The translations under genes were made by a program, and so were the position numbers. From positions 1-25,130 of IMG/VR virus record IMGVR_UViG_3300041809_002511: a stretch of DNA of 25,130 nt; one strand, given 5' to 3'. This DNA comes from a virus. Under the pieces are notes generated by a model, which did no database searches, was not told the origin of the DNA, and saw only the letters and a program-made list of their open reading frames with translations. Within the stretch, counting starts at the first letter, position 1, and each line of letters begins with the position of its first letter. Positions 2,827-25,130 of this stretch are shown here, in pieces.

Positions 2827-3115
2827 GCTGTTTTTCTAGTGGGTACGGCTTGAGGACAAAGAGAATGTGCGTTTCGCAGAACTTAATATGCTTCGCGCGC
2901 CACCCCACACCGAGTGCCGCCTGTCGGATGATCCCACGGGCGGCGGCTCGCATAGCTTCTGGCAAACCTTTGGTCTGGAGGAGGGCCCTGTGCTCCTTCT
3001 TTTCGCTGTCCGCCTCTAGCCCGTGCCCTCCAGGGAAGTGGGGGCCCGCGCTACTTAGCCAGCGCCAGATTTCTTGTAGGGCTTCTTTCGGATCGTCTGT
3101 TTCGTAGGTCTCCAT
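2726..3115 (-). CDS. Hypothetical protein on the minus strand, start codon overlapping terminase
   Basis: This encodes 129 residues from the ATG at 3115 (METYETDDPKEALQEIWRWL), with AAAGGG 11 bases upstream on the minus strand. The region 2827-3113 holds no credible plus-strand gene, while this frame gives a protein-like sequence: an acidic N-terminus, an Arg/Ala-rich helix, then KHIKFCETHILFVLKPYP and a basic tail. No family was recognised. Its start codon and that of the terminase share the palindrome CATG at 3113-3116, so the two genes are back to back with overlapping starts. The last third overlaps the preceding plus-strand gene in antisense, so the true end could be under constraint from both. 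Confidence 0.55.
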   Translation of the reverse strand: METYETDDPKEALQEIWRWLSSAGPHFPGGHGLEADSEKKEHRALLQTKGLPEAMRAAARGIIRQAALGVGWRAKHIKFCETHILFVLKPYPLEKQLMEQARSEEFRQAARKKREGTPPSREGNRNPAP

Positions 3116-4922
3116 GTGCGCAGCCACCCTTTCGAACAATACAAGTACCACGCAGCTGTATACCGCCGCGGAAATAGAAGACACAAACGATACGTGGCCC
3201 GACGAGACGCCTTTCATACCGGAAGGGGACGAACCCGTAGACGAAGAGCTTATGCCCGCCGTGAGCATGCAGGATCTGCCGACTGTTCCCAGCTTAATTC
3301 CTTCGAAGTTTACAGAGCGCGCGTTCATGATGCCGAGAGACGACGGATTAGGCTACGGACCTTTTTCGTTTGAAGGGCGCAGGCACCTCCCAAAGATCTA
3401 CGATACACGCGCGCGACGTATACTGTTAGTCTGTGCGCGTCAAGTTGAGAAGTCGACCTTACTGGGAAACCGTGCGTTATGCTACTCCGCACTAGTTACC
3501 GCGATGCGTATACTGTACGTGAGCCCGTCCTCGACGCAGACCAAGACGTTCAGCAACGACCGCATAAAAGAGCCGATCGAAACAAGTCCTATCCTGCGGC
3601 AATTCACAACGACGATGCTCTCGCAGAACATCTTCGAAAAGCAGTTCATCAACCGCTCGAAGATCACGATGCGGTACGCGTACCTCAACGCGGACAGAAC
3701 CCGAGGAATTCCTGCGCATAAGCTATACATCGATGAGGTGCAGGACGTTCTGCGGGACAACATCCCGGTTATTGAGCAGTGCACATCGCACGCCCCGGAT
3801 CAGTTGAAAGGCTTTGTGTACGCAGGTACGCCGAAGAGTCTCGACAATGTTATTGAGGAGTACCGAGCAAATCAAAGTACGCAGAATGAGTGGATGGTAC
3901 CCTGCGAGGGTTGCAACAAGTGGAACAATCTGGGGGAAAGAAACATAGGGAAGAAGGGTCCCATTTGCGCCACGTGTGGGAAAGCGATCAATCCGCAGAG
4001 CGAGCGCGCGCAGTGGGCGCCGTTTGTAGATCAGGATGAAGAGCAGATCAAGGTGCCGTGGCAAAGCTATCGTATCTCGCAGTTGATGGTCCCCTGGCAA
4101 ATCAGAAACTGGGGCGAGTTGATTCACAACTACGAGCATTATCCCCGTGCGCGTTTTCTGAATGAGTGTTTGGGGATCTCGTATTCGTCAGGAACGCGTC
4201 CGCTCACACAGGCACAAGTACGTGCGCAGTGCGGAACGCACTCGATGAATGACCTAGAAAAACTGCGGGCACTGTCTAACTCAGAGCCCTTCTTTTTTGG
4301 CATAGATTGGGGCTCGGGCGACCGCAGTTATACGGTCCTTACCATCAGCACGTACGTCAATAACCGCTTTCGCGTGGTTTACGCGCATCGCTTTGTCGGT
4401 GAAGAAGCAGACCCCGAAGTGCAGACGCAGAAGATTATCGATCTCGGGCGCGAGTTTCATGTGGCGTTGATTGGCGCCGACTACGGGTACGGCTTCGGGC
4501 TCAATCAGCGTCTAGTGCGCGCGTTCGGGGCACAGAAGGTTCACACCTTCCAGCATATGGCGCGCATCAATCGGCGCGTGTTCTGGGACGCGAAGATGCT
4601 GCGTTGGAAGATTCACCGTACGGAAGTCATGAGCGCCATCTTCGAGGCGATCAAAAAGGGCAAGGCCGAATTTCCTCGCTGGGAGGAATTCCGCCAGCCA
4701 TTCGCAGAGGACTTTACGAACATCTACAGCGAGTACAACGAGCGGCTACGCATGATTATGTATGACCACAAAGCGGGGAGTCCCGACGACTCGTTTCACT
4801 CGTTCATGTTTGGCTGGCTCGCCTCCATGATTATGATCCGTCGCCCTGACATTATTGCACCGTCCCAAGAGATCGACGGCGTCCCCGTCTCTGCGTATCG
4901 CGGGCCTACAGATCAAGGATAG
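3114..4922 (+). CDS. terL: Terminase large subunit (packaging ATPase and nuclease)
   Basis: This 602-residue protein is the motor that pumps phage DNA into the prohead and cuts concatemers. Visible motifs, in order: an acidic disordered N-terminus (1-60); a Walker A-type loop CARQVEKST (107-115), with Glu where Gly is usual; Walker B LYIDEV with Asp207/Glu208; coupling motif YAGTPKS (236-242); a zinc ribbon with Cys264, Cys267, Cys285 and Cys288; then an RNase H-like nuclease with Asp398 (FGIDWGSGD), Asp455 (GADYG) and Asp558/Asp559 (SPDDSFHS). The zinc ribbon between ATPase and nuclease resembles GpA-type terminases. No good ribosome-binding site precedes 3114, so a later Met (47 or 52) remains possible; the N-terminus is poorly conserved in character. 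It ends 5 bases from a converging gene. Confidence 0.95.
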   Translation: MCAATLSNNTSTTQLYTAAEIEDTNDTWPDETPFIPEGDEPVDEELMPAVSMQDLPTVPSLIPSKFTERAFMMPRDDGLGYGPFSFEGRRHLPKIYDTRARRILLVCARQVEKSTLLGNRALCYSALVTAMRILYVSPSSTQTKTFSNDRIKEPIETSPILRQFTTTMLSQNIFEKQFINRSKITMRYAYLNADRTRGIPAHKLYIDEVQDVLRDNIPVIEQCTSHAPDQLKGFVYAGTPKSLDNVIEEYRANQSTQNEWMVPCEGCNKWNNLGERNIGKKGPICATCGKAINPQSERAQWAPFVDQDEEQIKVPWQSYRISQLMVPWQIRNWGELIHNYEHYPRARFLNECLGISYSSGTRPLTQAQVRAQCGTHSMNDLEKLRALSNSEPFFFGIDWGSGDRSYTVLTISTYVNNRFRVVYAHRFVGEEADPEVQTQKIIDLGREFHVALIGADYGYGFGLNQRLVRAFGAQKVHTFQHMARINRRVFWDAKMLRWKIHRTEVMSAIFEAIKKGKAEFPRWEEFRQPFAEDFTNIYSEYNERLRMIMYDHKAGSPDDSFHSFMFGWLASMIMIRRPDIIAPSQEIDGVPVSAYRGPTDQG

Positions 4923-8798: not shown

Positions 8799-9590
8799 AT
8801 GTCAGGAATGAATCCCACCCTCGCAGCTTTCTACAACACGAATGGTGCCGGCGATGCCGCCCGCCAAGAACAAATCAAGATTGCGCATCTTGACCTCTTC
8901 GCAAAAGCGGCCAGCGCACAAGGCTACGATTTGACGACGATGGCACCGGCGCAAGTCGAGGAGCTCTACGCAGCGTTCAGCACCAAGCTCGCTGAAGGCG
9001 CGGAAGCCCTTGAGCACGCAGGTGAGGAAGAAGAGGAGAAGGGCGAGAAGGACGAGGCCAAGGGCAAGACCGAAGAGGAAAAAGGCGAGAAGGAAAAGGA
9101 AGAGGCCGAGGAAGAAAAAGAGGCCCAAGCCCAATACGCCGCCATGAAGCAGTGGCAAGACAAGGTCGCGGAAGCGGATCACCTTGGCCGCGTGATGGCG
9201 CACTCCTTCACGGACGAACGCAATAAGATTGCTGCTGCGGCGAAGGTCGCCGGCACGCTTCCTCCGGCGCTGGCAGCGCACAACGCAGCGGCGAAACCTC
9301 CGGCGAAAAAGAAGGGAGCCGGCACCGAGGAAGAGCCCAAGACGGCGTCAGCCGCGCCGGACTTCGATCGACAAGCGGCGCGCTTGGCTATCAAGATTGC
9401 AAGCGACAAAGGCTTCGATGGCAACGAGGCCCTGCAACGCATGAACGCGCTCTTCGCGCTCGGCGTCCCCCCGATGGCGAAGACGGCGTCTGCCCTCGGT
9501 AGCTACAACGATGCAGTGAGCGTGCGCGCCCTCGAATTCCTCGAGGCCGCGAAGTACCCGGTGGATTGGTCGCAGGTTTTCGGGCGCTAA
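8799..9590 (+). CDS. Scaffold-like acidic coiled-coil protein
   Basis: This 263-residue protein is preceded by GGAGAT about 9 bases from the ATG. Residues 75-112 are almost purely Glu, Lys and Ala (a long charged helix), flanked by helical Ala-rich regions. Lys-x-Ala sites occur at FAKAASAQ (35-42), PKTASAAP (180-187) and MAKTASALG (226-234). High charge, helix content and position between protease and major capsid protein are typical of scaffold or prohead core proteins, which hold the shell in place during assembly and are then cleaved and expelled. No specific family was recognised, so the scaffold role is inferred from composition and gene order. Confidence 0.7.
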   Translation: MSGMNPTLAAFYNTNGAGDAARQEQIKIAHLDLFAKAASAQGYDLTTMAPAQVEELYAAFSTKLAEGAEALEHAGEEEEEKGEKDEAKGKTEEEKGEKEKEEAEEEKEAQAQYAAMKQWQDKVAEADHLGRVMAHSFTDERNKIAAAAKVAGTLPPALAAHNAAAKPPAKKKGAGTEEEPKTASAAPDFDRQAARLAIKIASDKGFDGNEALQRMNALFALGVPPMAKTASALGSYNDAVSVRALEFLEAAKYPVDWSQVFGR

Positions 9591-13000: not shown

Positions 13001-14122
13001 ATGGCATCGGCACGTTCTGTCAACGACTTGTTCAACACACGCCTCGGGGAACCGGGGGGCAAAGAGAAGCTCGCGCAATTCGGCGGCTCCTATATCCGCG
13101 ATCGTCTTCGCGAGGTTTCGTTCGTTCGCAAGATCGTGCCGCCGGAGCAGGTCACGCGTACGGACTGCCAACGCTCCACCAAGCACGACACCCTCGTGAA
13201 GATTGTGGACGTCGAGCCGCAATCGCGCGCGATGGCCATCAGCTTCCGAGGCGCGCCCACCGCCCGATTCATTCGTGGCGAAAAAGCGGAAATCGCGTTC
13301 TTCACCATCAGCTCCGAAGTCTTTCAGAAGACGGAACAAGAGCTCCTGGCGTACGAAATGCCCATCACGAAGGTCATCGAGGAGAACTCGGTGAAGGACA
13401 TCCAGGAAATCGAAGACCGCGAGTTCGTCATCCACAGCGAGGCGGCCGTCCAAGCGCTTCAACAGGAAGCCAATGGCGGAACGATCACCACGCTCAATGC
13501 GCTGGCGCTTCAAGGGTCGTCGCCCCCCGTGGAATTCTCCGTGCGAAAAGGCGAACTCGCGCGCACGGCCACAACGGACGATGCGACCATCCACCCGCTT
13601 CAGCGCAAAGACCTCGTTGAGGGCTTCAAGCTGATTGACGGCAATCGGCTTCGCTGCGAGCGCTTCCTCCTCACCGAGGTGGACTTCGACGACGTTCTCT
13701 CGTGGACCGTGGAAGACAACGGCGACCGCATCCAGTCAGAGACGACCGTCGACGGCTACAAGTACAACCTGCTTGTCGGGCGCCCGTACATTCGTACGGT
13801 GAAGACCGACATCCTTCGACGCGGCAACATCTACTTCTTCACGGCGCCGGAATTCTTCGGCAAGTTCTACGTCTTGAACCAGACCAAGTTCTACATCGAC
13901 AAGGTGGCGAACATGATCACGTTCCAAGCGTGGGAAGACATCGCGATGGCCGTGATCAACATTGCGTCCGTGCGCAAGATCGAACTCTATTCGGCAGACG
14001 CCTCGGCGAACAACACCGACGGCTTGCTCTCGAACTTCATCCCGGTGACCGAAGACCAACTTGGCGCGATCAACAACCGCGTGGGCGAAGGTCTGAAGTT
14101 TCCCCAGGTCGTGAGCAACTAG
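13001..14122 (+). CDS. Major capsid protein
   Basis: This 373-residue protein forms the icosahedral shell. Evidence: position after protease, scaffold-like and decoration genes; the strongest ribosome-binding site in the window; length typical of HK97-fold capsid proteins; a terminator directly after it. The N-terminal helix (NDLFNTRLGEPGGKEKLAQF) resembles the N-arm; the centre is mixed alpha/beta with a long helix (about 100-155); the C-terminal half is beta-rich (YNLLVGRPYIRTVKTD, GNIYFFTAPEFFGKFYVLNQ). No Lys-Thr-Ala site is present, unlike its neighbours, so it may escape the processing proposed for them. HK97 fold is inferred from context and pattern; alternative roles are unlikely. Confidence 0.85.
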   Translation: MASARSVNDLFNTRLGEPGGKEKLAQFGGSYIRDRLREVSFVRKIVPPEQVTRTDCQRSTKHDTLVKIVDVEPQSRAMAISFRGAPTARFIRGEKAEIAFFTISSEVFQKTEQELLAYEMPITKVIEENSVKDIQEIEDREFVIHSEAAVQALQQEANGGTITTLNALALQGSSPPVEFSVRKGELARTATTDDATIHPLQRKDLVEGFKLIDGNRLRCERFLLTEVDFDDVLSWTVEDNGDRIQSETTVDGYKYNLLVGRPYIRTVKTDILRRGNIYFFTAPEFFGKFYVLNQTKFYIDKVANMITFQAWEDIAMAVINIASVRKIELYSADASANNTDGLLSNFIPVTEDQLGAINNRVGEGLKFPQVVSN

Positions 14123-20428: not shown

Positions 20429-20824
20429 ATGGACCCGACCACCTACAGCGCCTTTCTGGACGAACTGATAAAGATCGCGGATGTAGATCCGATCACGGAT
20501 TCGCAGTCCGCCGTGCAGCCTGACGAACAAACACCTCCGATGTATCGAGAGCACCCCGCAGCGACGTTGGCAAAGGGCATCGGTACGTTCGCCGTTGGAG
20601 CTGGTCTCGGCTACGCCGGTGGGCACTTGGCAGACCGCGCGGTTCGTGCGTTCGGCGGCGAGGGCATCCCGCGCTACATCGTCGATGCTGTCGGCCCCGT
20701 AGCGACAGGAGCCACCGGGTTGGGCTTTTCCTATCTCCAGCACAAAATGATGGATAGGATCAAGGCCAATACCCAGAAGGGGCCCACCCGCGATGAGCAA
20801 CTCGCCCAAGATACCGGGTTTTGA
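20429..20824 (+). CDS. Small glycine-zipper protein with N-terminal Lys-x-Ala tag
   Basis: This 131-residue protein begins MDPTTYSAFLDELIKIADVD, an amphipathic helix closed by a Lys-Ile-Ala site like those at the starts of the genes at 6618 and 17894. Residues 45-66 (TLAKGIGTFAVGAGLGYAGG) and 88-103 (GPVATGATGLGFSY) are Gly/Ala-rich hydrophobic segments with GxxxG spacing, possible membrane helices. It has a 32-base overlap with the next gene. No family recognised. The tag and zipper suggest it is packaged in the virion with the larger proteins of the same type. Confidence 0.7.
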   Translation: MDPTTYSAFLDELIKIADVDPITDSQSAVQPDEQTPPMYREHPAATLAKGIGTFAVGAGLGYAGGHLADRAVRAFGGEGIPRYIVDAVGPVATGATGLGFSYLQHKMMDRIKANTQKGPTRDEQLAQDTGF

Positions 20825-21731
20825 ACAAGCAAACCAGTTCGAAGGCAGCTTCAAGTACACGCCGCTGGAATGGCTGCGCGGTCTCTTCGTGGGCTTTCTA
20901 CAAGGCCTGTTCGGTGCAGCGCCCATAGGGAGCTACCACTGGGAAGAAGACCGGCAAACGACAGACATCGTGATTCAGGATGAAGCTCCCGTGAGCGAAG
21001 AGACGATGCAACAGCGTCCTCTTATCGTCATCACACGCGGGCCGATTCAGTTCTACTCCTTTGGGATGGACGATCTCCACGAGTACCGGATGGACATCAA
21101 CCGCAAGACCAAAGGCATCCTTGTACCGGGGACGATTACTATCAACTGTTGCTCGCGAACACCCTTAGAAGCGGAGAACATCGCGTGGACCGTCGGAGAG
21201 CATCTTTGGCTGCTGCGTGACCTTCTTATTGGGACGGGACGCTTGTTCGATGTCGGGCGCCAAATACAAATCGGTGCACCGTCCCCCGCGGGCTCCATCA
21301 TCGCAGACGACAACGGTCACAAGTGGTACGCCGTCGCAGTCAGCGTGCCCTTCCAGTTCACGCGAACAAGTGCACGCACACCTTTGGGGGACAGGATTAT
21401 ACAGAACATCCACGCGCGTCTGTCCCCAAGGTTCGGGGGCAAACCCGCACAAGGTGGACCGCCCCCCGTCGGAGGCCACGAATATCCAGTAGACATTACA
21501 CGCTATCCGCCACCGCCGATCGTCAACGCCCCTGACGCTAAAGGGGCCACAGCTTCTTTTGCGCAACAAGGAGCCGCAATACAAAAGCAGCGGCACCCGC
21601 TTTACCCGGACAAAGAAGTGACGATCCGTACGGTGCGCCCCTATCGACCAGGGCTTCATTCAAACGCGCCTCCGGCCGCATGTTCAATTCCCATACGGCG
21701 TCCTCACATGGAACAATTCTCGAACAAGTAG
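20793..21731 (+). CDS. Neck or tail-terminator candidate
   Basis: This 312-residue protein starts inside the preceding gene. A short hydrophobic helix (LEWLRGLFVGFLQGLFGAAP, 25-44) is followed by a mixed alpha/beta domain (about 50-215) with IVITRGPIQFYSFG, TITINCCSRTPLEAENIAWT, a helix (VGEHLWLLRDLLI) and VAVSVPFQFTRTS. The C-terminus is Pro/Gly-rich and probably disordered. The strand-helix-strand arrangement and the position directly before the sheath resemble tail-terminator or neck proteins that join tail tube/sheath to the head; this is inferred. The ORF is well supported by its protein-like sequence, though its ribosome-binding site is weak and may rely on coupling. Confidence 0.65.
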   Translation: MSNSPKIPGFEQANQFEGSFKYTPLEWLRGLFVGFLQGLFGAAPIGSYHWEEDRQTTDIVIQDEAPVSEETMQQRPLIVITRGPIQFYSFGMDDLHEYRMDINRKTKGILVPGTITINCCSRTPLEAENIAWTVGEHLWLLRDLLIGTGRLFDVGRQIQIGAPSPAGSIIADDNGHKWYAVAVSVPFQFTRTSARTPLGDRIIQNIHARLSPRFGGKPAQGGPPPVGGHEYPVDITRYPPPPIVNAPDAKGATASFAQQGAAIQKQRHPLYPDKEVTIRTVRPYRPGLHSNAPPAACSIPIRRPHMEQFSNK

Positions 21732-21763: not shown

Positions 21764-23839
21764 ATGACGGCCGCCCCCTCTTCCCTCCCGCGCCCTGGCG
21801 TTCAAGTCGTTCAGCAGTTTAGGGCTACCACTCCCACGGTGATTACGCCGACGCTCGTTCCGAACATCGTCGGTGTTTGTAAACAAATCGTCGATGTGCT
21901 GGTCTCCGACGGTGCTGGCGGACAAATCTTGAACTCGGAAGCGCTTATCAGCCTGCCTGCGCTTTTTGTCGCAGAAGCTGCCTCGGGCACACCGGCTGTC
22001 TACACGGGCCTCGACGGTCTGGAGCTTGTTCTAAGCATCAATGATGGCGTCGATGTCCCCATCGCGTTTTCGGACCCATCCGCGACAGGACTCACGGCCT
22101 CGACGGTCGTTTATCAGATCAATGCGATGCTGCAGCAACAAGGCGTGACTTCCGGGCAGGCCGTACTTCTGACCGACACAACGTGGGAGTTCGTCACGTT
22201 CGGCAAAGGACAGTTTCAATCCATTCTGGTCGACACCGGCACATCGCCCGTTGTCGCGACGGCGTTCGGCATCGGCATCGGACACACGTACGTGGGAATT
22301 GGTAACTACGACCAGTACGAAACGACGATTCCTGAAGTCGCTTTTCCCGATCCGCGTAGCAACTTGGCAGAACTCGCCATTGAGGCAGACAGCGTGCGCG
22401 TGTTTCTGTCGACGGGCAGCGGCGTAGGTATCAAAGAAGCCACGCGTACGGACACCTTTTTGCGCCGTGGGGTTGTAGCTACGTCCGCAGTACTGACATC
22501 GACGACGGACCTCACGGGGCTCACGTATCCGACGGCACTCCTCGGAAAGACGCTCACAATCAACGTGGATGGCGGCACGGATCAAACCATTACGTTCCCT
22601 GCGGCGGATGTTACTGGCACCGATGGCGTCGTCGCCGTCAGTGGAACAACGGTCACATTTACTTCCGCGACATTGGTTTACGCGGACTGCTACGTCGGGC
22701 AGACATTTACCTTTGTGGATTCCGTGCACGCGGGGAATACAGGCACCTTCGTTCTCACCGAGGTCAACTTGGTGGGTTCGCCACACGTGCAGTTCACCAA
22801 CGCAAGTGCCGTCGCTTCAACCGGCGTTCACTGGACCATCGTGTTCCCTGCGGATGCGGCGGACGTCCTGGCCTTTGTGCAGGCGGGTTTTTCTGGTGTG
22901 ACCGCGGCCCTCGATATCACGGGGGAGTACCTATCCATCACGGACAACTCCACGGGCACAAGTAGCGTGCTTACTTGGCGCTCGTCGAGTACCGCGCCGA
23001 TCGCTTTCCTTGTCGCCTCGAGTACAGGCGTTAGTATCGCCGCAATCGACGACGGCAATGGCGACGCGTACACGCCCCTTCTGCAGTTTGCAGGCTACAA
23101 CTTCACAGCAGCCGCCGCGAACGCGGTGCTTACGGCATCTTCGGCGCCGACGTACTCGGGCCTTGGCGGAAAGACGCTCACGATCAGTGATGGCGGCCAG
23201 CCCCAGACCATCGTGTTCACAGGCAGTGAGACGACAATCGCAGGCGCTACCAATAGCCTACAAGCGACCATTCAAGCCATCGTGGGCATTGCTGCCGGCG
23301 GAAATATTTCGGTGACAAGTTCGAGCGGCAAACTCGCGCTCACGAATACCAACTACGCCGGTGAAGACTCTATCGTGCATATCGTGGGCGGTACAGCCCT
23401 CGCGCTGCTCGATCCTGGCGTCACGCCGACGCTCGTTGCTGGCGCCGATGCCCGCGGCAATCCCTACCCGCCGGCCCCCGGCGATGAAATCTGGATCGAC
23501 GGCGCGCTCTATGCGCACGTGACGAAGGTTGCCTACGGGGGTAATGCAGCGGTCTTGCGCATCGACGCACAGGTGCCCGTCAACCCAGATGTGGGCACGC
23601 ACTTTTTCATCCAAGCGAAAAACCTTGTGATGCCCCCGCTTACAAACCGACCGATTCCGGACTTGTACTTGGACCTGTCGGACAACGTGTACATCAAGGC
23701 GAGCCTTCTGCGCGACTTTACCGGCGCGCCTATCTCACGGCGCGCCTATCTCAGTGAACACACCCATCTACTTGTCCTACAGCGCCGTGCGCCTGGATAC
23801 GACGGCTCTCGCAACGAATCCCGGTCTTCTACGCTATGA
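21764..23839 (+). CDS. Contractile tail sheath protein, N-terminal part (frameshifted)
   Basis: The tail sheath surrounds the tube and contracts to inject DNA. The 691-codon frame begins with the sheath-type start RPGVQVVQQFRATTPTVITP. It then carries several inserted beta-sandwich-like units: about 87-170 (FSDPSATGL), 258-300 (GKTLTINVDGGTDQTITF), 360-425 and 466-550 (GKTLTISDGGQPQTIVF). The core resumes near 560-658 (GDEIWIDGALYAHV, LSDNVYIKASLLRDF). After residue 658 a tandem 16-bp duplication shifts the frame; the last 33 codons (RRAYLSEHTHLL...) are out-of-frame readthrough ending at 23839. AAGGA lies 13 bases before the ATG, a poor spacing, and a 5-codon mini-ORF (21742-21759) sits in between. 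Other sheaths are roughly 400-700 residues; this one would exceed 1,100 if repaired. Confidence 0.8.
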   Translation: MTAAPSSLPRPGVQVVQQFRATTPTVITPTLVPNIVGVCKQIVDVLVSDGAGGQILNSEALISLPALFVAEAASGTPAVYTGLDGLELVLSINDGVDVPIAFSDPSATGLTASTVVYQINAMLQQQGVTSGQAVLLTDTTWEFVTFGKGQFQSILVDTGTSPVVATAFGIGIGHTYVGIGNYDQYETTIPEVAFPDPRSNLAELAIEADSVRVFLSTGSGVGIKEATRTDTFLRRGVVATSAVLTSTTDLTGLTYPTALLGKTLTINVDGGTDQTITFPAADVTGTDGVVAVSGTTVTFTSATLVYADCYVGQTFTFVDSVHAGNTGTFVLTEVNLVGSPHVQFTNASAVASTGVHWTIVFPADAADVLAFVQAGFSGVTAALDITGEYLSITDNSTGTSSVLTWRSSSTAPIAFLVASSTGVSIAAIDDGNGDAYTPLLQFAGYNFTAAAANAVLTASSAPTYSGLGGKTLTISDGGQPQTIVFTGSETTIAGATNSLQATIQAIVGIAAGGNISVTSSSGKLALTNTNYAGEDSIVHIVGGTALALLDPGVTPTLVAGADARGNPYPPAPGDEIWIDGALYAHVTKVAYGGNAAVLRIDAQVPVNPDVGTHFFIQAKNLVMPPLTNRPIPDLYLDLSDNVYIKASLLRDFTGAPISRRAYLSEHTHLLVLQRRAPGYDGSRNESRSSTL
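23722..23753 (+). repeat. Perfect 16-bp tandem duplication inside the sheath gene
   Basis: CGGCGCGCCTATCTCA occurs twice without a gap (23722-23737 and 23738-23753). Each copy contains the 8-base palindrome GGCGCGCC. Because 16 is not a multiple of three, the second copy shifts the sheath frame by one base. Deleting one copy joins ...FTGAPIS to VNTPIYLSYSAVRLD in a single open frame. Confidence 0.95.
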
Positions 23840-25130
23840 AGACACGACAACGCTCGACAACGATCTCGGACCTACAACGGCCGACAATCCGCTGACACTC
23901 GGGATGTTCTTCGCGTTGATCAACGCGCCGGGCATTCAGGTTACCGGCCTCGGCGTCGACGAAGTCAGTGATCTCGAACCCTTTGGAACAGTGGAGGCCT
24001 TTACCCGTGCCGCCGAATTCCTTGAGGGCTTTGAGGTGTACGCCATCGCGCCGTTGACGCACGACATGAGCATCGCGCAAATCTTCAACACCCACGTGCA
24101 GTTCATGTCCGAGCCCACGTCGCGCGGTGAGCGCATCGTCATCTTCAATCCGTCGATGCCGACCAACGCCCTCGATAACCTTGTCGCCAGTGCCACAAAT
24201 GGCGATGCACTAAGTACGACGACGTTCGATACCAAGATCAACAACCTCACGACGCTGCTACAGAATGCCGGCGTCAGCCCAGTAGGCGTCATCCCCGTCT
24301 CGGCCGGCGTCTTCCTTGAAGTCGCTTCGAGCTCGCTGGTGTTCTCCGTACTTCAAGTGAGCGGCTCGCAGATCACGGTGCGCACTACCGCAGGACAATT
24401 CCCCAGCGGCACGAACAACGACGACTTCTACGCAGAGACTACGCTGCCTTTGCCGATCATCGCGGCGACTTTCTCCATCTTCGTGCGCGGTCTGCCTCTT
24501 GTGACCGTCTCGGGAACCATGGACAAGAATGCCGTCGCAGCCACGGTCAATGCTATGGGTGCATCCTTCTCACAACGCCGGTTCTGGATGACGGAACCGG
24601 ATCGTTGCACGGCGACTATCGGCGGCGTCACCCAGATCATCGACGGCTTCTACCTTAATGCGGCCCACGCGGGCGCAATTGGGCAGCAACCTCCACAACA
24701 GTCATTCACCAACTTCCCCCTCACTGGTTTCGTCGGCGTCAAGGGCAGCAATGACACCTTCAGCGAGTCCCAGCTCGATGTCATGGCGGGCGGCGGGGTC
24801 ACCATCTACATTCAAGACGTCGCGTCTTCGCCGGTGTACGCGCGTATGGCGCTTACTACGGATCTCACCAGCGTTGAAACGCGCACGGATTCGGTCACCA
24901 AGGTCGTCGACTTCACCGCGAAGTTTATGCGTTCTTCCCTGCGTTCCTTCATCGGGCGCTTCAACATCGCACAGGGCTTCTTGGATACCTTGGGCCTTGT
25001 GACCCAGGGCTTGTTCGGGTTCCTCGGCGAGGCGGGCGTGCTGATCGGCGGTTCTCTCGACAATGTCATTCAAGATGAAAACGAGCGAGACAGTGTCCTG
25101 CTCGACTGCACCTTAGATGTACCTATTCCA
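23754..25130 (+). pseudogene. Contractile tail sheath protein, C-terminal part (out of frame, cut by window edge)
   Basis: From 23754 (GTG AAC ACA CCC) the third frame is open to the last base, 459 codons with no stop. It reads VNTPIYLSYSAVRLDTTALA, then a helical/beta core (VSDLEPFGTVEAFTRAAEFL; MSIAQIFNTHVQFMSEPTSR). It ends with the region best conserved in sheath proteins: GGGVTIYIQDVASSPVYARM, LTTDLTSVETRTDSVTKVVD and RSSLRSFIGRFN. No start codon with a ribosome-binding site precedes it, so it cannot easily be a separate gene; it is the continuation of the frame broken by the 16-bp duplication. The stop lies beyond the window. Confidence 0.85.

Follow-up and report, generated by a model that had tools for sequence, protein, structure and literature searches.

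Why should a long virion gene carry, inside its coding sequence, a short stretch of DNA written twice, head to tail, with a length that is not a multiple of three? The window analysed here is the entire virus record (25,130 bases), a single metagenomic contig, and this phage is represented by that one record. Near its end, the duplication separates the two parts of a tail sheath gene into different reading frames. The duplication is very probably a one-off, non-functional lesion, that is to say, an accident rather than a functional element.

The duplication and the gene that it breaks

The 16-nt unit CGGCGCGCCTATCTCA is found in two perfect head-to-tail copies at 23722-23753, with TTTAC before and GTGAA after them; the sequence therefore confirms the claim of the initial annotation that an exact 16-bp tandem duplication shifts the frame of the sheath gene. 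Copy 1 (23722-23737, plus strand) ends the correct frame with GGC GCG CCT ATC TCA (G A P I S), homologous to GAPISV in the relative L005, while copy 2 (23738-23753, plus strand) represents the extra, frame-breaking 16 nt, missing in every spanning relative. The period-16 run has exactly 16 matching positions and no extension, which corresponds to two units, and neither a partial third copy nor a flanking microhomology pair was detected at its ends. Besides, CGGCGCGCCTATCTCA is the sole 16-mer present twice in the window. The duplication is not expected by chance, because none with a period of 12 or more (exact, in tandem) was obtained in 60 third-order Markov resamplings of the window.

As written, the N-part of the gene (21764-23839, plus strand) encodes 691 aa: blastp to relatives supports 658 correct codons, up to 23737, which are followed by 33 out-of-frame codons and a stop. 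The C-part (23754-25130, plus strand) runs in the shifted frame for 459 codons until it is cut by the contig end, and is 51-74% identical to relatives. The frame is broken at 23738, between the added domains and the C-terminal core, so that the N- and C-terminal parts of the sheath core do not share one reading frame in this record, as they do at this site in all spanning relatives. No compensating frame change was found in the record; each part keeps its own frame and the two align to adjacent residues. Removal of one copy yields a joined frame of 1,117 codons (658 + 459), in agreement with the more than 1,100 initially proposed. The C-terminus had also been described as intact, and the C-part is indeed clearly homologous to relatives, but it is incomplete: judged by the stop of the relatives, the contig end cuts off about 10 codons.

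The identification of the broken gene as a tail sheath is well supported, since family and fold matches agree. The C-part matched PHROG 279 (tail sheath; E=1.2e-6), as did 16 of the 24 intact relatives (best E=2.4e-12). On the other hand, no Pfam sheath match was obtained, and a profile of the C-part gave no match against PDB sequences. The fold of the intact relative L005 was modelled with an input of 24 relatives (mean pLDDT 83.7). The model matched the sheath 3hxl (E=7e-5) and tail chains of phage 812 (best E=2e-6) in PDB, and its fold also resembles the sheath structure 8fvg (E217). The TM-scores were low, which is to be expected because the protein is much longer and has added domains.

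Sheaths with added domains are frequent in large phages (PMC9230969), and the gene can be compared with the multi-domain "type 3" form of the contractile tail sheath of those phages. The C-part and 16 of the 24 relatives share the family with it, but the relatives studied here are unusually long. Their length, about 960-1281 aa from stop to stop, suggests that added domains have been gained and lost. Related to this, about 70 residues (283-353) of the N-part (window 21764-23737) are missing in L002-L004, and fold matches to the flagellar cap FliD, together with one weak Flagellin_IN match, suggest hook-IN-like domains.

The neighbourhood fits a structural cluster, as it contains the terminase large subunit (3114-4922) and the major head protein (13001-14122). 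Contigs of the relatives reach about 210 kb, and for this reason the record probably belongs to a large contractile-tailed phage, of which it covers only a part. Other features of the window were also observed. An imperfect 21-nt tandem array at 9030-9118, rich in GAA/AAG and coding for an E/K-rich stretch, lies within the ORF 8799-9590. About 370 bases at 1054-1421 have no clear plus-strand gene and hold a minus-strand ORF of 105 aa (1102-1419). The ORFs 20429-20824 and 20793-21731, which both match relatives, overlap by 32 bases; probably the overlap is natural or a start has been misplaced.

The site in related phages

The comparison of the same gene in related phages, proposed as a check in the initial annotation, was carried out with the C-part. 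A search of IMG/VR with it gave 33 relatives, and its profile gave 82 loci (80 viral contigs and two contigs of metagenome-assembled bacterial genomes). One of these loci is cut by a contig end before the site, which leaves 81 spanning relatives. All 81 have one uninterrupted frame through the site, with at least 434 codons open upstream, and neither a frame break nor a tandem repeat nor 16-nt copy-number variation was found at the site in any of them.

At the residue level, residue 658 of the N-part aligns with residue 583 of L002, and residue 1 of the C-part with residue 584 (pairwise alignment). The same adjacency is repeated in L003, L004, L005 and L011. In the multiple alignment the duplication sits in a short loop; relatives differ in the length of this loop by up to 9 residues, always in frame. 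In the L005 model the site falls between strands 561-563 and 580-590. Only one exact tandem duplication with a period of at least 10 was found in the sheath ORFs of the relatives; it is 12 nt long and keeps the frame.

From the single frame of all spanning relatives and the adjacency of the aligned parts it follows that the single copy is ancestral and that only this record has the second one. One copy is the normal state of this sheath gene, which is sound apart from the break that the repeat causes. The possibility that relatives might share two copies, kept in frame by a compensating change, had been raised as the finding that would speak against a frameshift; no relative has two copies. 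A shared feature of the phage group is likewise discarded, as no relative carries the duplication.

Some searches gave no result: the N-part alone had no match in IMG/VR, nor did an exact 22-nt probe (left flank plus unit); a DNA search of phage records had no match, and a kin search for a virus record found nothing. Apart from this site, a sheath frameshift was observed at 5390-5410 of L111 (IMGVR_UViG_3300042731_004843), near the position equivalent to residue 715 of the L005 sheath; an exact tandem repeat of at least 10 nt is not present there.

Origin of the second copy

The initial annotation had proposed an assembly error, a defective phage or prophage, or a slippage switch as possible explanations. 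The first two remain, whereas the switch has no positive support: there are two units, no partial third copy and no variation in relatives. It is about an even chance that the second copy is an error of the assembly, the reads or the library behind this contig, and this origin is slightly favoured; a recent null mutation, really present in the molecules that were sequenced, is a serious, somewhat smaller possibility. The artefact is in line with the expectation that an intact sheath is essential, with the origin of the record as one metagenomic contig and with the absence of a frame break in the other genes examined; the unrelated frameshift of L111 indicates that records of this kind contain occasional frame errors. 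On the other side, a short-read assembler based on k-mers longer than 16 would not normally produce two copies unless reads cross the junction, which favours some real two-copy molecules. The lack of any sign that the two flanks come from different phages points the same way. Ordinary null frameshifts caused by tandem duplication, like assembly duplications, also consist of perfect adjacent copies with a length that is not a multiple of three, here private to one record; the difference is that no microhomology is present at the ends in this case. A literature search for tandem duplications within tail sheath genes gave no account of such a lesion.

Two broader explanations of the lesion were considered and rejected. 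Of the window genes, 21 others were examined; all are open, and their matches to relatives, some of them over part of the gene length only, show no frame break. General decay of a prophage is therefore not supported, and the lesion is a single, isolated one. A chimeric join of different phages is not indicated either, as the nearest relatives and the third-codon GC are similar on both sides of the duplication.

Each copy holds the palindrome GGCGCGCC, which had been suggested to promote strand slippage. Its presence in both copies is correct, but it is also found unduplicated at window positions 13250 and 16100, and single at the same sheath site in the relative L012. About 4% of the 16-mers of the window hold some 8-bp palindrome, so its occurrence in the unit may be a coincidence. 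Taken together, these single occurrences and the frequency of 8-bp palindromes discard the palindrome as a sufficient cause. Fold prediction gives a hairpin for the two-copy state only (23723-23746), with GGCGCGCC as the 8-bp stem and TATCTCAC as the 8-nt loop. Its stem consists of G+C and its energy is -12.9 kcal/mol on one strand and -13.6 on the other (z about -4). Folding of the single-copy unit gave no hairpin; therefore, the hairpin may help the loss of a copy and cannot explain its gain. Any duplication of a palindrome would yield it as a by-product, and it shows no sign of function. Slippage and microhomology-mediated duplication gain no support either, because they normally leave a partial copy, absent here; a run of exactly two units would better suit an uncollapsed contig overlap or a random duplication.

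A functional role of the repeat (switch, ribosome hopping or separate start) is unlikely even when these readings are taken together. The least improbable of them is a reversible switch, in which the tandem repeat expands and contracts and the sheath is on or off in part of the phage population; we consider it improbable. As 16 is not divisible by three, gain or loss of one copy toggles the frame, and the strong 8-bp hairpin of the two-copy state could favour the loss of one copy. In slipped-strand phase variation, as in icaC of Staphylococcus aureus, copy number also sets the frame, but this process uses several simple repeat units of 1-10 nt (PMC4117637), and here there are only two units of 16 nt and a site that is invariant in copy number among the 81 spanning relatives. 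Reversible microhomology-mediated tandem duplications have been described in the coding gene ssp1 of fission yeast (review PMC13207564) and, as in this case, a short segment is written twice in a coding gene and the frame is lost. Nevertheless, the end microhomology pair that typically flanks such duplications, and leaves a partial third copy, is absent from the run of exactly two units, and there is no sign of reversion. The lack of a hairpin in the single-copy unit and the single GGCGCGCC at two other window sites and in L012 also speak against a switch, and it is not obvious how switching off an essential virion protein would be of benefit. A wider version, in which the repeat is a real unstable allele with a reversible sheath off/on state, caused either by frequent copy loss driven by the GGCGCGCC hairpin or by ribosomes hopping between identical codons, is just as improbable.

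Two further readings, both very remote, would leave the DNA as it is and obtain the sheath at the level of translation. Ribosomes could leave a codon in copy 1 and re-pair 16 nt further on in copy 2, in a hop like that of T4 gene 60, or could shift frame, to give a full-length sheath. Each copy-1 codon is found again exactly 16 nt further downstream, in the frame that a hop requires, and the two copies can pair in a hairpin; T4 gene 60 is known to combine identical take-off and landing codons with stem-loops (PMC11194080). These matching codons, common to both cases, are automatic, since any perfect duplication produces them. Unlike T4 gene 60, the site has no stop codon beside the take-off codon at any candidate, and the longer RNA context favours another fold that is not unusually stable (z = -1.45). 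A conserved recoding signal, as expected of programmed bypassing or frameshifting, was not found, with a frame break in 0 of 81 spanning relatives. Alternatively, the sheath might be split into two proteins, the second one starting at the GTG at 23754, where an open frame begins directly after copy 2. This GTG is preceded by ggcgcgcctatctca, without a Shine-Dalgarno-like sequence, while AAAGGA lies upstream of the true start at 21764; the GTG corresponds to the valine codon of GAPISV in relatives, none of which is split at this site. A promoter-like site for the C-part was not found, and a separate start is consequently rejected for want of both a ribosome-binding site and a promoter-like site.

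Meaning for the phage and for its record

The lesion is thus most likely of an ordinary sort, an error or a mutation, rather than an element of a new kind. A 16-bp stretch in a length-variable loop of the sheath is written twice, which puts the conserved C-terminal core out of frame, and the gene as written would produce a truncated 691-aa protein without that core. The sheath core is assembled from both N- and C-terminal parts (PMC9230969), so the truncated sheath should be inactive, and a phage with such a protein should be unable to form a contractile tail. The duplication, the frame break, their absence from every relative and the lack of compensation are seen in the sequences; we infer both the loss of function and the cause of the duplication.

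If the duplication is an accident, it matters little. It is at the same time a caution, because small private duplications can break the gene content read from single metagenomic phage contigs, and comparison with relatives exposes such breaks quickly. A real two-copy allele able to revert would, on the contrary, offer an uncommon example of frame control acting on an essential virion protein.
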